From a virus: a stretch of DNA of 29,816 nt. How positions within the stretch are numbered: position 1 is the stretch's first letter; every line of letters starts with the position of its first letter. The notes under the pieces were generated by a model. The model saw only the letters and a program-made list of their open reading frames with translations, was not told the DNA's origin and ran no database searches. Below, one piece after another: positions 683-5,254 of the stretch. The stretch lies in the IMG/VR virus record IMGVR_UViG_3300027917_000133, positions 1 through 29,816 of that record; one strand, given 5' to 3'. Position numbers and translations under genes: made by a program.

Positions 683-991
683 TCAATCACTCCACGATAG
701 TCTTTCTGGTCTGTATCTTTGTGCGTTTTTAATTGTTAGTGAATTTGGTGTTATTGGATAGATATTATGAACAATTGCTCCAGGATACTCTCCCTGAAGT
801 TGTTCTGCAAGTGCATTTTTATCCATAATATTACCTTCAACTTCAAGGCGATATAATTTACCTTCCCAAACAACATCTGCAAAAAATGATTCAGTTGCTT
901 GCTCTGGTTGAGAAGATCCTACATTTAAGGTGCCGTTAAAGTCTCCGTTGATAGTGATACTCTCTGAAATAAATTGTTGAAAACTTTTCAT
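683..991 (-). CDS. Small protein with T4-like capsid-targeting N-terminus; candidate internal head protein
   Basis: This 102-residue protein starts MKSFQQFISES. T4 internal proteins IPI-IPIII start with a near-identical capsid-targeting sequence (MKTYQEFIAE, from memory), which the prohead protease gp21 removes after an (I/L)-x-E site. Here ISE at residues 8-10 would be that site. The body after residue 11 holds a short beta-like stretch (ITINGDFNGTLNV), an acidic middle, and a basic aromatic end (RYRPERLSWSD). I know of no function for the body. The ATG is one base after the TAA of the 541-residue gene. I infer that the product is packaged in the prohead, and perhaps injected or structural. 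Alternatively it could be a small virion protein whose N-terminus only resembles the signal. Confidence 0.7.
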   Translation of the reverse strand: MKSFQQFISESITINGDFNGTLNVGSSQPEQATESFFADVVWEGKLYRLEVEGNIMDKNALAEQLQGEYPGAIVHNIYPITPNSLTIKNAQRYRPERLSWSD

Positions 992-992
992 T

Positions 993-2618
993 TTAGTTAC
1001 AATTCCAACGACGAAGGGCTTTGTTGATTCTTGAATCTGGGTCTTTTGCAGTTTTTGCTGGAGTCAATTTAGATTTCATCCCAGACATACGCCGACAAAA
1101 TGCTGCACGACGCTTTGCTCTTTTACCTTTTGGTTTTTTTTCAGTTACTGCGGTTTGTAACTTTGAACCAGGATTCTCACGACGATAGGCATCAACCGCT
1201 TTCTGACTTAAACCATCTGTTTTATCTTGACGATTGACTTTTTGCCAGTCTTCCGATAATCCGAAATCTGCTCTCCAGTTTGAATATTCTTCATTTTTTA
1301 CCATACCGTGAATAAATTTCCCTTTAGTTTGTTTATCGTGCCAAGAAATACTTCTAATCTGACTATTTGCATAATCGGAAGATTGAGATTGTGTTCTTGG
1401 TGTGGAACTAAATCTAGTTCTTTTTTTGGTTCCGGGTCTATTTTTTTTCCATTTGAAGTGTGATTTTTTTTCTTCTCTTCTATCTTCAGAAGCAGCTCTT
1501 CTCATCTCAGGATCTTGTCCCATAACTTCCTCTGCTCTCATTTCACCACTATCAACATAATCTGCTGCAGAATCAAGATAATCTGCTGCCTTTGTAATTT
1601 TTGATTGAACCCAAGCTTTAATATTTCCTTCCCCCTTCATTTTTTTACGAAGTCTCTTTGCCGCAGAAACAATTGTAGAGAGTTCTGAGCGAGCCATTGA
1701 ATGCTCGTGATCATACTCCTTAGACTCTGGGAAATTTCCTGGATGTGGGGTATTAGGATCATAATCTTTACCTAAAATACTTGGTAAAGAGTACATATCC
1801 CAAAACTTTGGTCCATATTTGCACTCACTACGAGTCTCATCTTTTTTACATTTTGGGCAGTATCTAATCATTTCGATTGCCTCAGATTTAGTTCCCCAAT
1901 TTTTGGCGCCAACTTTACGACACTTAACAAGTGCTCCAGATGCATACGCACTTGGCCAAACATCATATCTTGACCTTACTTTGTGATAACAAGCATCTTT
2001 TTTACCACTACCCTTACTTGGTCTATCTTTTTGTGCTTCGTTAAGTTCCATTGCTTCTTTAATTCCTGGTTCTGCTTTGACGTAATTTTTATCTTTTTTA
2101 CCTTTAGCAAAAGTTGGAACATAGGTTGGACTTGCCCCACCAGTTTTTGCTTGTTGCCCCTTATCTTTTTGTCTTTTTCTTCTAACTGCCGATGCAATCA
2201 AAGATTTTCCCTTTTTACCTTTTTTCTTCAATGAAGCAAGTCTTGCACTACTAAAACATTTTGGAGTTTTAGTTTCTCCCGGTTCATTAGCACAGGGAGA
2301 ACCATCTGCTTGAACCCATCCAGGTTTTCCTTCTTTTGAACGAGAACCTTTAAACCAATGATGAAGAGTTCCTTCGGAAACATCTTTAAATTTTTTATGG
2401 TCTTTTTTAGCATCAGATTCCATTTTTTTCAGACGAGTATAATAATCTGGAATTTCATCTAAATGTTGAAGAGCAATATCAGTAGCAAGATCTTTATCTT
2501 TTGTATGTTCATGCTCAATTGGTATTCCCATTTCAAGTTGCTTCTTTACAAAAGAAACTTCAAGGCGATGTTTCTTTGCAATTTGCTCAACTGATTTGTG
2601 AGATTTTAACTGATGCAC
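993..2618 (-). CDS. Lysine-rich mosaic virion/internal-head candidate made of several phage mini-domains
   Basis: This 541-residue, very basic protein strings together segments I recognise as separate small phage domains. Residues 8-67 have an HTH-like start and then a DUF5661-like HTKDKDLATDIALQHLDEIP segment. Residues 85-170 hold WFKGS, GKPGW, PCANEPGE, TPKCFSSARLAS. Residues 207-242 hold a DUF5872-like SRYDVWPSAYASGALVKCRK. Residues 254-266 are CPKC plus a later C (possible zinc site). Residues 300-360 hold WVQSKITKAADYLDSAADY. Residues 468-540 are a C-terminal module with AFCRRMSGMK and SRINKALRRWNC. The start is GTG; no good Shine-Dalgarno precedes it, but the first domain continues right up to it. 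There is no catalytic motif. Position between terminase and a capsid-targeted protein suggests an internal or DNA-associated head protein; this is inference. Family names are from memory. Confidence 0.75.
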   Translation of the reverse strand: MHQLKSHKSVEQIAKKHRLEVSFVKKQLEMGIPIEHEHTKDKDLATDIALQHLDEIPDYYTRLKKMESDAKKDHKKFKDVSEGTLHHWFKGSRSKEGKPGWVQADGSPCANEPGETKTPKCFSSARLASLKKKGKKGKSLIASAVRRKRQKDKGQQAKTGGASPTYVPTFAKGKKDKNYVKAEPGIKEAMELNEAQKDRPSKGSGKKDACYHKVRSRYDVWPSAYASGALVKCRKVGAKNWGTKSEAIEMIRYCPKCKKDETRSECKYGPKFWDMYSLPSILGKDYDPNTPHPGNFPESKEYDHEHSMARSELSTIVSAAKRLRKKMKGEGNIKAWVQSKITKAADYLDSAADYVDSGEMRAEEVMGQDPEMRRAASEDRREEKKSHFKWKKNRPGTKKRTRFSSTPRTQSQSSDYANSQIRSISWHDKQTKGKFIHGMVKNEEYSNWRADFGLSEDWQKVNRQDKTDGLSQKAVDAYRRENPGSKLQTAVTEKKPKGKRAKRRAAFCRRMSGMKSKLTPAKTAKDPDSRINKALRRWNCN

Positions 2619-2633
2619 AATAATAAAAAAAAT

Positions 2634-3056
2634 TTACTCTTTACTATTTAGAAAACCTTGCTTTAACAATTTAGAGAGTTCTGTAGTCGATCCGACAAAT
2701 ACCGCGTTGTTTGTAACATTGTTAGTTGTTTTTGTAGATTCATCTTCAATATCTTTTACTTTCTTCTGAAGGTCTATAAGTTTATCAGTTACATCTCCAA
2801 CATTTTTTATAAGTTGTCCCGCAACTTCATATGCTCTTGGAGATGCAGAGTCTCCGGCAAGTTCCATAATTCCATTAATTGCTTCTTGTCCCTTTTCAAT
2901 TAATGAATAGAGATTAGCTCTAGTGTATTCGTAGTCTTTTTTAATATCATCTGGTTTTATAGGTGAAACCGTTATATCCAAATTTTTTTCATCGCCCTTC
3001 ACAATACTACTTTCAATATTGAGAGATTGGTCCAATTTATCATAATTATTGTTCAT
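2634..3056 (-). CDS. 16: Small terminase subunit gp16 (TerS)
   Basis: This 140-residue protein resembles T4 gp16 (164 aa), which binds DNA ends and stimulates the gp17 packaging motor. Shared features are the central helical segment with DSASPRAYEVAGQLI (T4 has a similar DSPRHMEV stretch), a following coiled-coil-like helix (KLIDLQKKVKDIEDE), and a C-terminal VFVGSTTEL segment matching T4 VFMGSPTEL. The acidic, variable N-terminus is also typical. The gene lies six bases after gp15. In T4 gp17 follows at once; here it is followed in the same reading frame by the 541-residue gene, after a TAA and about 15 bases. No promoter is visible before it, so it is probably co-transcribed with gp13-gp15. 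Confidence 0.9.
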   Translation of the reverse strand: MNNNYDKLDQSLNIESSIVKGDEKNLDITVSPIKPDDIKKDYEYTRANLYSLIEKGQEAINGIMELAGDSASPRAYEVAGQLIKNVGDVTDKLIDLQKKVKDIEDESTKTTNNVTNNAVFVGSTTELSKLLKQGFLNSKE

Positions 3057-3062
3057 AATCTA

Positions 3063-3860
3063 CTAAATGTCCTGCTGTTGAGTTGGGCTATATGTTTTAC
3101 TATCGAAGAACATTTCTGTAGTTTCACCAAATCCAAAATCATCATCTGGACCAGCATCAATTGGATCCGGAACAACCGTATAACGCATTTCTCTTTTAGC
3201 TGTAGTAGTATCTGTTCCAGAATAGTAATCAACCTGTACTTTACGAATAAGTCCATCTGTGGATTCTGCAATTGGACCAAATAGATAGGTTTTTGCAGTA
3301 AAATTAAATGTATAAATTAAAACTCTTCTTGTAGAAAAATCACCCTCATAATCATCAGTGAATGATACGTTATCCAAAACTATTGGTATATCACGTTTTT
3401 CTCCAATTGAATCAATTAAATCTACTGTTAAATTAAATGATGGTTGAAAATAAGGTAAAATCTGTTCTACTACTTGTAAAGCATCATCCTGAAGTTTAGA
3501 CATTAAATTTAATTGAAATCCAATATTATACGGAACTGGCATATAAACTTTTTTTACATTTCCACCATCACAAGCTTTAAATGTTTGTGTAACATTAGAT
3601 TTTCTTGTTGGATCATATTGAATAGATGTCATTTCAAATGATAATCTAGGTAAAGTTATTGCAATTGGTTTGTTCAATTCTGGTTGCTGCTCAATTCTAG
3701 CCAAGAACTTTTGAACGGGACCATATGCTAAAGGAATTTTGATCTGACTAATACTGTCACCAGAAGAATCTTTATGTCTAACATTAATATCATTAAATAC
3801 TGTTCCAAACGCAATAACAGTTCTTCTAATTATTTCGTGATAAAAATAAGTTCCTAACAT
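3063..3860 (-). CDS. 15: Tail terminator / sheath stabiliser gp15
   Basis: At 265 residues it is close to T4 gp15 (272 aa). T4 gp15 caps the tail tube and sheath and joins the tail to the gp13-gp14 neck. The strongest shared stretch is DDALQVVEQILPYFQPSFN, near-identical in T4, followed by RDIPIVLDNVSFTDDYEGDF and an SRRR-like STRRVLIYTFNFTA strand. The N-terminus (YFYHEIIRRTVIAFGTVFNDI) also follows the family. The acidic C-tail (DDDFGFGETTEMFF) is, as I recall, common in cyanophage gp15. The start ATG overlaps the gp14 stop as TAATG, indicating coupled translation and near-equal synthesis with gp14. No abnormality is seen. Confidence 0.95.
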   Translation of the reverse strand: MLGTYFYHEIIRRTVIAFGTVFNDINVRHKDSSGDSISQIKIPLAYGPVQKFLARIEQQPELNKPIAITLPRLSFEMTSIQYDPTRKSNVTQTFKACDGGNVKKVYMPVPYNIGFQLNLMSKLQDDALQVVEQILPYFQPSFNLTVDLIDSIGEKRDIPIVLDNVSFTDDYEGDFSTRRVLIYTFNFTAKTYLFGPIAESTDGLIRKVQVDYYSGTDTTTAKREMRYTVVPDPIDAGPDDDFGFGETTEMFFDSKTYSPTQQQDI

Positions 3861-5254
3861 TAATAAGTACCAAATGGATTTGACTGTGAAAAATCTATAA
3901 TTTGATCTGCTTGATCTTGAATTTCTTTATTTTCCCCATATTTATCATAGAGATCCCATTCATTTACAATGGATACTGCATAAGTTGCGGAAGAAGATGA
4001 TCCGACAATAATTTCTCCGGGATAAAATTCAAAGTTATTTTCTCCAATGTTTGCAAAAGATACTTTTAATATCTTAGTATCATAATCCCACGATTTAACT
4101 CTTGCTTGAGTTCCTGAAATAGAACCCGTAATAATCTCATTGAATATATAGGTTCCAAATCCACTTAAAGATGGTGGATTTTCAATAATAATCGATGGAG
4201 ATTCAGTATACCCTACACCTGGATTAGAAATCCTAATTGCAGAAATTTGATTATTTGTTCCTAAAGAAGCAATTCCGACCGCAGTTTCTCCAACCCCAAC
4301 AGAACCTACAATTGTTATTAATGGTTTATTTTTATACCCACTACCAACGTTCAACATATTAAATGAAACAATTCCACTATCAACTGTTTCTATAGAACAC
4401 GTTGCAGCAGCTCCAGATCCTCCGCCCCCAATTATTGTAATAGTTGGTGCTACTGTATATCCAGATCCAGCATTAGTTAAAAGTATTTCTTTAACCGATC
4501 TAACTCCACCAAATGATGAAGTTATTGCAACTGCCGTTGCATTTGTTCCTCCTGAAGGAGCAGTAGATATAGAAACTACAGGGGCGCTGGTATATCCATA
4601 ACCATCATTATTTAAGTAAATCCTTCTTACATATCCAGATCCAATTGTTGCGGATGCTGTCGCAGTCGATCCACTACTGATCAATGTTAATGTTGTAATA
4701 TATCCTTCATCTTGAACTTGAGTGTCAATCTCATCGATACTAGTGTCAATAACTTCATCCTCATATTCAAACAATTCACATTTTAGTTCATAGACGTATA
4801 ATTTTCCTAATTGGTAAAATGGTTGTTCATTTTCAACATATTTAACTTCAAATAATCTTTGTCCCAATGGAAAATAAACTAAATCTCCTTCTCTTGGTCT
4901 AGTTGATATTTCAATTTCGTTATCGTCACTAGATTCTAAAAATGGGGCAATAAAATCTTCAAATCTTTCTTTTGAAATAACTAGATTTACTTCATCCTTT
5001 AAAGTAACCCCAAACTTTGTTAAAATATCTCCTTGTCCAGTATATCCATCGTAATTATTTACATAAGCTTCTATAGCATAATTGTCATCAAATTTTGAAG
5101 ATGATACTTCTTTAAGAATGCTTTCTTTCCTCACAAATTTTCTTGGGATGTAAATAACTTCCACACCATAAATTTTAAGCTGCTCATTAATTAACTCTTG
5201 AATGAGTCTCTGTTCATTTCGAGATCCTTGTAAGAAAAAGGGATTAAGTGCCAT
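3860..5254 (-). CDS. 14: Neck protein gp14 with C-terminal GxGY repeat extension
   Basis: Residues 1 to about 175 match T4 gp14, which with gp13 closes the filled head and forms the neck: IPRKFVRKESIL, DILTKFGVTLKDEVNLVIS, RPREGDLVYFPL, ENEQPFYQLGKLYVYELKCE. The protein is 464 residues against about 256 in T4. The surplus is a C-terminal region with four repeats, N-x-G-x-GY followed by P-x-(I/V)-x-I, starting at residues 216, 261, 302 and 344, spaced 41-45 residues. Residues 360-430 look like a further beta domain. The same repeat occurs in gp8, the gp7-like protein and the 2439-residue protein. Start and stop both form TAATG overlaps with gp13 and gp15. I infer that the extension decorates the neck; its function is unknown. 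Confidence 0.93.
   Translation of the reverse strand: MALNPFFLQGSRNEQRLIQELINEQLKIYGVEVIYIPRKFVRKESILKEVSSSKFDDNYAIEAYVNNYDGYTGQGDILTKFGVTLKDEVNLVISKERFEDFIAPFLESSDDNEIEISTRPREGDLVYFPLGQRLFEVKYVENEQPFYQLGKLYVYELKCELFEYEDEVIDTSIDEIDTQVQDEGYITTLTLISSGSTATASATIGSGYVRRIYLNNDGYGYTSAPVVSISTAPSGGTNATAVAITSSFGGVRSVKEILLTNAGSGYTVAPTITIIGGGGSGAAATCSIETVDSGIVSFNMLNVGSGYKNKPLITIVGSVGVGETAVGIASLGTNNQISAIRISNPGVGYTESPSIIIENPPSLSGFGTYIFNEIITGSISGTQARVKSWDYDTKILKVSFANIGENNFEFYPGEIIVGSSSSATYAVSIVNEWDLYDKYGENKEIQDQADQIIDFSQSNPFGTY
4184..4609 (-). repeat. Four protein-level GxGY repeats in gp14
   Basis: The encoded copies begin NDGYGYTSAPVVSI, NAGSGYTVAPTITI, NVGSGYKNKPLITI and NPGVGYTESPSIII (gp14 residues 216, 261, 302, 344). 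The period is 41-45 residues. The DNA copies have diverged, so these are old protein repeats and not recent tandem duplications. Confidence 0.85.

Follow-up and report, generated by a model that had tools for sequence, protein, structure and literature searches.

A mosaic chain of small domains in the structural gene cluster of T4-like cyanophages that probably yields several small virion proteins

The window analysed here is a 29.8-kb viral record from IMG/VR, and it carries a T4-like structural gene cluster on the minus strand. The cluster genes are, in order, those for baseplate proteins, gp13, gp14, gp15 and gp16 (small terminase), then the gene studied here, a 102-aa gene and a cut-off fibre-like gene, which is the setting of the head, neck and terminase cluster of a T4-like cyanophage (Kyanoviridae). 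The gene of interest spans 993..2618 on the minus strand, with a GTG start at 2618 and the stop at 993, and encodes a 541-aa protein of 61.7 kDa and pI 9.87, in which Lys and Arg (122) outnumber Asp and Glu (70). The same reading frame had been put forward in a preliminary description that gave no strand, and the motifs quoted there are present. Upstream lies the gp16-like small terminase gene (2634..3056, minus strand), and on the other side lies the 102-aa gene (683..991, minus strand) of family phrog_1742, which belongs to one of the domain families described below (bead L) and has an N-terminal T4-type capsid-targeting sequence (CTS), MKSFQQFISE|S. The gp14-like neck protein of the cluster (3860-5254, minus strand) has a Gly-rich repeat insert at about residues 190-360, and the PHROG families that this insert hits are those of virion structural, baseplate and tail-fibre proteins.

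The nearest annotated relative of the 541-aa protein is found in Synechococcus phage S-SRM01 (Kyanoviridae), at 66.6% identity across 88% of the protein, and the gene order there is similar to that of the window except for inserted endonuclease genes. Relatives were found by tblastn in 477 phage records, nearly all of them cyanophages, and orthologues were mapped between gp16 and gp17. In S-SM2, P-SSM2 and S-SM1 the corresponding gene is annotated as hypothetical under T4-GC 119, which is reportedly a cluster from Sullivan et al. 2010; T4-GC 119 genes also bear the ambiguous remark 'similar to Synechococcus phage S-SM1 protein'. The 541-aa protein belongs with this cluster by sequence similarity and by its position near gp16 in the gp13-gp23 cluster, and its PHROG families are phrog_727 and phrog_3477. 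We found no description of the organisation reported below in the literature on T4-GC 119, in which members are described only as hypothetical.

Family hidden Markov models (HMMs) recognise six small domains, here called beads, in the order B-F-G-I-J-M (their residue numbers are ORF coordinates minus 5). All lie on the minus strand: bead B at residues 10-67 (2418..2591), bead F at 85-165 (2124..2366), bead G (DACYHKVRSRYDVWPSAYASGALVKC) at 202-245 (1884..2015), bead I (CPKC...C) at 252-279 (1782..1865), bead J (the AWVQSKITKAADY helical hairpin) at 303-359 (1542..1712) and bead M at 458-540 (999..1247). A basic disordered linker at residues 360-449 (1272..1541, minus strand) separates J from M, with low pLDDT at 358-394, 396-406 and 408-449. 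Two beads are known to Pfam: B is DUF5661 (PF18905; residues 11-68, E 1e-14, 55 bits against a cut-off of 27) and the very basic bead M, with two Cys, is DUF6321 (PF19846; residues 464-538, E 2.5e-12, 47.7 bits against 28.5). Hence, the modularity of at least five segments and the DUF5661-like segment proposed earlier are both borne out, and the C-terminal AFCRRMSGMK..RRWNC module, left unnamed at the time, is DUF6321. A DUF5872-like module had also been proposed; Pfam DUF5872 (PF19197) gave no match with the whole protein at E<=1, and the bead G consensus reached 15.3 bits against a cut-off of 27.5 (E 0.031), below threshold. The CPKC motif suggested as a zinc site is present in bead I, but the only Cys of this bead are 254, 257 and 266, an incomplete site given that a zinc ribbon has four metal ligands; three Cys are found in 62 of 63 bead I sequences. 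Bead I probably forms one unit with bead G.

An AlphaFold2 model was built from 48 homologues, taken from the window and from metagenome loci only. Folded beads are predicted at about residues 10-76, 94-155, 207-296, 308-357 and 455-540, and are separated by segments of pLDDT <50 at 77-93, 183-206, 297-307 and 358-449; the overall pTM is 0.26. Only DUF5661 and part of G+I reach a pLDDT of about 90, and the remaining beads are at about 55-80. With the whole protein as query, a sequence search found no relative of solved structure at E<=10, the sole Foldseek match had a meaningless E of 8 and VIA-align gave no match with Z>=2, all of which leaves room for structural relatives of single beads.

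To describe the relatives, HMMs for 18 bead types, made from the 541-aa protein and its relatives, were searched against 103 loci. Three or more beads occur in 95 proteins, and the loci contain 69 distinct bead strings, a tally that also counts ORFs with one bead and frames truncated where a contig stops, so that full-length orders are somewhat fewer. Bead content and order vary freely, through insertions of A, C, D, E, H, K, L and others, and the earlier statement that the modules occur in other combinations is borne out, with 95 relatives, 18 bead types and dozens of orders. The S-SM2 mosaic SSM2_109 (locus L003, 9698-11824) has a DUF192 domain as one of its beads (Pfam E 3.6e-24). Among pairs of mosaics with bead B at least 85% identical, the identity of bead F ranges from 39 to 91% and that of bead M from 28 to 94% (5th-95th percentile), which indicates that alleles are swapped bead by bead. 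The bead pattern is more than chance, given that it recurs in 95 related proteins and that the junction motif exceeds every shuffle. Common ancestry of the beads could not be detected, as an all-against-all hhalign comparison of 16 bead types gave no pair above 10% probability. Five types (A, F, G, H and M) do share a design: they are small and basic, with a median net charge of +6 to +16, and exactly two Cys are found in every A, F, G and H sequence and in 69 of 82 M sequences, the two Cys of F and G being invariant. Beads B, J and K contain no cysteine and range from neutral to acidic, so the earlier picture of DNA-binding basic peptides throughout does not hold.

Some beads are also found as separate short genes, as the preliminary description had stated. 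In Roseobacter phage CRP-7, three consecutive genes of 80, 47 and 84 aa beside terL resemble beads F (gp63), G (gp64) and M, with G and M assigned by HMM and F by eye. In the T7-like Prochlorococcus phage P-SCSP1o a lone M gene follows closely after the major capsid gene. A search seeded with this M gene gave 80 further viral contigs, in which M is the only bead in 73 matching ORFs, 71 of them of 72-142 aa and typically about 80-110 aa.

The junctions between beads carry a recurrent hydrophobic-x-Glu motif. In the 541-aa protein it is seen as VSE82|G between B and F (2373..2381), IKE188|A (2055..2063), LNE194|A between F and G (2037..2045), a weak FPE298|S between I and J (1725..1733) and LSE456|D, which ends the putative core-targeting-like motif SNWRADFGLSE at residues 446-456 (1251..1283), all on the minus strand. 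A hydrophobic-x-Glu is found in 48 of 48 homologues both in the B/F linker and in the F/G linker (as [IL]xE in 37 of 48 in the latter), in 47 of 48 at the place of LSE456 and in 19 of 48 at the I/J site. Sites 82, 188, 194 and 298 lie inside segments of pLDDT <50, and LSE456 lies just past the last such segment. IKE188|A, LNE194|A and LSE456|D match the [IL]xE processing motif itself. Of the three (I/L)-x-E sites named earlier, LNE192-194 and LSE454-456 are indeed at bead junctions, but LDE53-55 is in AlphaFold helix 42-55 (pLDDT about 90) and conserved within HLDEIPDYY, and is probably no cleavage site because it lies inside the folded, conserved DUF5661 core. That list had missed VSE80-82, IKE186-188 and FPE296-298. 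The likelier cleavage sites are VSE82, IKE188, LNE194 and LSE456, and perhaps FPE298.

Across the relatives, [IL]xE is concentrated in the linkers and depleted in the beads. In 445 unique linkers it occurs 210 times, compared with 98+/-9 after per-linker shuffling (2.1x), and inside beads 80 times compared with 188 (0.43x), while the reversed motif Ex[IL] is not enriched in the linkers (103 vs 99.5 expected). The pattern sharpens for [IL]xE[AGS], which is seen 74 times in linkers (18.5 after shuffling) and once in beads (37 after shuffling). Two residues before the Glu (P3), the hydrophobic residues L, M, I, F and V are clearly enriched, 1.8-2.3 times, and Ala follows the motif directly in 14.7% of cases, compared with 3.7% for the remaining Glu, a roughly fourfold difference. 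Given that the linkers are phylogenetically related, shuffling overstates their independence, a problem that is reduced but not removed in a non-redundant set of 162 linkers from 72 junction types; here [IL]xE occurs 92 times against 51.7, with 0 of 500 shuffles as high, and the reversed motif 58 times against 51. The last site of these non-redundant linkers is a median of 3 residues ahead of the next bead. When the mosaic proteins are taken whole, [IL]xE does not exceed its reverse (1.17x vs 1.25x), and the signal is therefore one of position. The G-I and I-J junctions count against cutting there, as [IL]xE is present in just 10% and 6% of their unique linkers.

The specificity of the T4 prohead protease gp21 is L/I-x-E (PMC9026906), and in nine of nine cyanophages examined gp23 has [LI]xE|A/T/Q where its conserved mature region starts. 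As controls, the gp22 scaffold gave 2.14x for [IL]xE and 3.0x with A/G/S after it, compared with 1.14x and 0.43x for portal and tail proteins and 0.93x and 0.96x for giant baseplate proteins. A gp21 gene (Peptidase_S77) is present in all 10 metagenome contigs that continue for 8.4 kb or more beyond the mosaic gene, at a downstream distance of 8.1-11.5 kb (distances computed by hand), and the twelve mosaic contigs without gp21 end within 0.4-8.1 kb. It is also present in the complete genomes of P-SSM2 and S-SM2, the two tested. Among 14 records with stand-alone beads, three of which are complete genomes, neither gp21 (Peptidase_S77) nor a Peptidase_S78-type protease was found.

Capsid-targeting signals are found on the stand-alone genes rather than at the start of the mosaics. 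The comparison was made with what we take to be the full T4 CTS. A T4-type CTS starts all 33 stand-alone L genes, including the neighbour at 683-991, and all 20 stand-alone A genes. Residues 4, 7, 8 and 10 of bead L are F/Y, F, I/L/M and E, and these positions have been shown to matter in the CTS of T4 IPIII (PMC9026906). S-SZBM1_192 consists of a CTS start, MKTFKQYITE|A..., followed by bead M. Within the mosaics, seven CTS-like strings were found where 0.72 would be expected, and six of these lie 10-16 residues ahead of bead M (for example LKTFNEFVIE|A and LKTFQQFMED), a place held by SNWRADFGLSE or similar in other relatives. They sit ahead of bead M as if CTS-tagged genes had fused. No N-terminal CTS was found in any of 92 mosaics, the 541-aa protein included, which counts against import by the route of the T4 internal proteins.

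Published virion data bear on several bead proteins. In S-CREM2 virions, ORF137 (4 peptides, 4.1% coverage) and ORF160 (7 peptides, 13.1%) were detected (PMC10665884 Table 3); by sequence, gp137 has beads L and M and gp160 has beads F, H and G. The S-SCSM1 orthologue of the 541-aa protein is labelled 'virion protein' in GenBank, a label that may reflect mass-spectrometric detection; the S-SCSM1 paper used mass spectrometry to identify 45 virion proteins, of which 13 have unknown function. In S-SZBM1, the CTS+M protein (192) and the long basic product of gene 194 are absent among 30 reported virion proteins; at a K/R content of 23%, such proteins are hard to detect with trypsin. No relevant text on bead M in virions was found in the P-SCSP1u structure papers.

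We read the gene as encoding a chain of small beads that probably yields several small proteins for the virus particle. The best-supported mechanism, because the motif, its position and the controls agree with gp21 processing, is a head-associated polyprotein that would be cut by gp21 in the prohead, with the basic beads kept with the DNA and injected; we give this complete sequence of events an even chance. The gene would presumably be expressed late, as part of the gp13-gp23 structural cluster, and its product imported into the prohead, where cleavage of the disordered linkers by the T4-type gp21 would follow the hydrophobic-x-Glu of VSE82, IKE188, LNE194, LSE456 and perhaps FPE298. About five products would be freed, namely DUF5661, F, G+I, J with its basic tail and DUF6321. 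The basic two-Cys beads (F, G and M here, A and H in relatives) may then stay on the packaged DNA, a binding suggested by their charge, and be injected as the T4 internal proteins are. T4 IPI, IPII, IPIII and Alt are CTS-tagged, cut by gp21, packaged and injected. The bead proteins resemble them in their [IL]xE-type sites and in the CTS-like starts of stand-alone A, L and some M genes and, by analogy, several small proteins would be packaged with the DNA; they differ in that a single chain joins many beads, has its sites at the joins and lacks an N-terminal CTS. Multiple sites for one protease within one head protein are also known from SPN3US gp53/gp54 and from phiKZ head and ejection proteins. 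However, the cuts in these giant phages remove N-terminal propeptides (PMC10052503), whereas those in the bead protein would separate swappable domains.

The beads could instead be recombination cassettes of a flexible multi-domain head or neck protein that is never cut, the hydrophobic-x-Glu being a conserved hinge or the trace of fused gene starts, and we consider this unlikely although it deserves weight. Bead swapping is certain and in itself favours conserved linkers, and M-x-E, with M enriched at P3, can come from fused start regions. Yet the P3 enrichment extends beyond M to L, I, F and V, the linker motif shares its P3/P1/P1' pattern with the site at which gp23 of these phages is matured, and its enrichment matches that of gp22, a known T4 gp21 substrate, and is absent for the reversed motif and in the tail and baseplate controls. 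Cutting by gp21 could also serve a different end, if the protein were a consumable component of the prohead core that, like T4 gp22 and gp67, is mostly expelled before DNA packaging. The T4 core proteins gp22, gp67 and gp68 are chopped at several [IL]xE sites and their fragments mostly expelled (PMC9958956); the bead protein has a similar enrichment of internal sites, at a density resembling that of gp22, bead proteins were not detected in S-SZBM1 and the coverage of gp137 in S-CREM2 was very low. We regard this as improbable, given that the same phages encode a separate gp22, that the beads are conserved, folded and mostly basic domains with invariant Cys, unlike a disposable scaffold, that bead proteins were detected in S-CREM2 virions and that a bead of this kind persists as a gene of its own in T7-like phages in which no T4-type protease was found.

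The position between gp16 and gp17, the stand-alone F-, G- and M-like genes adjoining terL in CRP-7 and the basic charge of beads would also fit an accessory factor of the terminase or of DNA packaging, working outside the head. Such a role is very doubtful, as the gene precedes gp16 in P-SSM2, other genes intervene in S-SM2 and S-RIM8, some S-CREM2 beads are encoded far off, on the other side of the genes for the late sigma factor and UvsW, and virions, in which a terminase would not be expected, do contain bead proteins.

A more general arrangement can be proposed, to which we give slightly less than an even chance: in T4-like marine phages, the late-gene polyprotein would be an exchangeable cassette of internal-head mini-proteins that are separated by the prohead protease, so that injected DNA-binding or host-takeover peptides re-mix through domain recombination, and phages without a T4-type protease would encode beads of these families individually. 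Hundreds of cyanophage genomes carry T4-GC 119 or its relatives, to which no function has been assigned. Release of the beads by gp21 would explain the odd variability of this gene by its architecture, would provide a case of a phage head polyprotein with exchangeable parts and would predict exact cleavage sites. It would also define a set of small injected proteins, the capsid-targeted neighbour included, that may act early in the infection of marine cyanobacteria.

Two further sequence features recur in proteins of this cluster. A SNWREEL/SWRDEL...hydrophobic-x-E motif is internal, C-terminal or close to the N-terminus in several of them; besides 1251-1283 (minus strand) of the window, it is found at L088 16243-18234, L087 41492-42013 and L184 2989-4362. 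Among the proteins that carry it or a similar motif, P-SSM2 PSSM2_125 and S-CREM2 gp155 have it close to the N-terminus, and S-SZBM1_139 has it at the C-terminus. S-CREM2 gp155 and S-SZBM1_139 have been detected in virions, and the motif may be a second core-targeting signal. Some bead-type proteins have a stretch that resembles the mature gp23 N-terminus (PTNSVGNGGYTSAGGQTVAGYD and similar), namely S-SM2 SSM2_108 (L003 9273-9701), in which it comes immediately after a CTS-like start, S-CREM2 gp160 (L087 44343-45236) and a protein of S-H35 (L101 5815-6567). This stretch is possibly an arm that binds the capsid shell.

The phrog_1742 neighbour at 683-991 combines an invariant CTS start with a small strand-strand-helix-strand fold. 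Its best PDB match is the RNA polymerase inhibitor T7 Gp2, with a Foldseek probability of 0.99 but an E of 0.11 (VIA Z 5.2, rmsd 2.4 over 49 residues), and the RNA polymerase epsilon subunit YkzG is a lower-ranked match. The predicted fold weakly suggests a packaged and injected protein that binds RNA polymerase.
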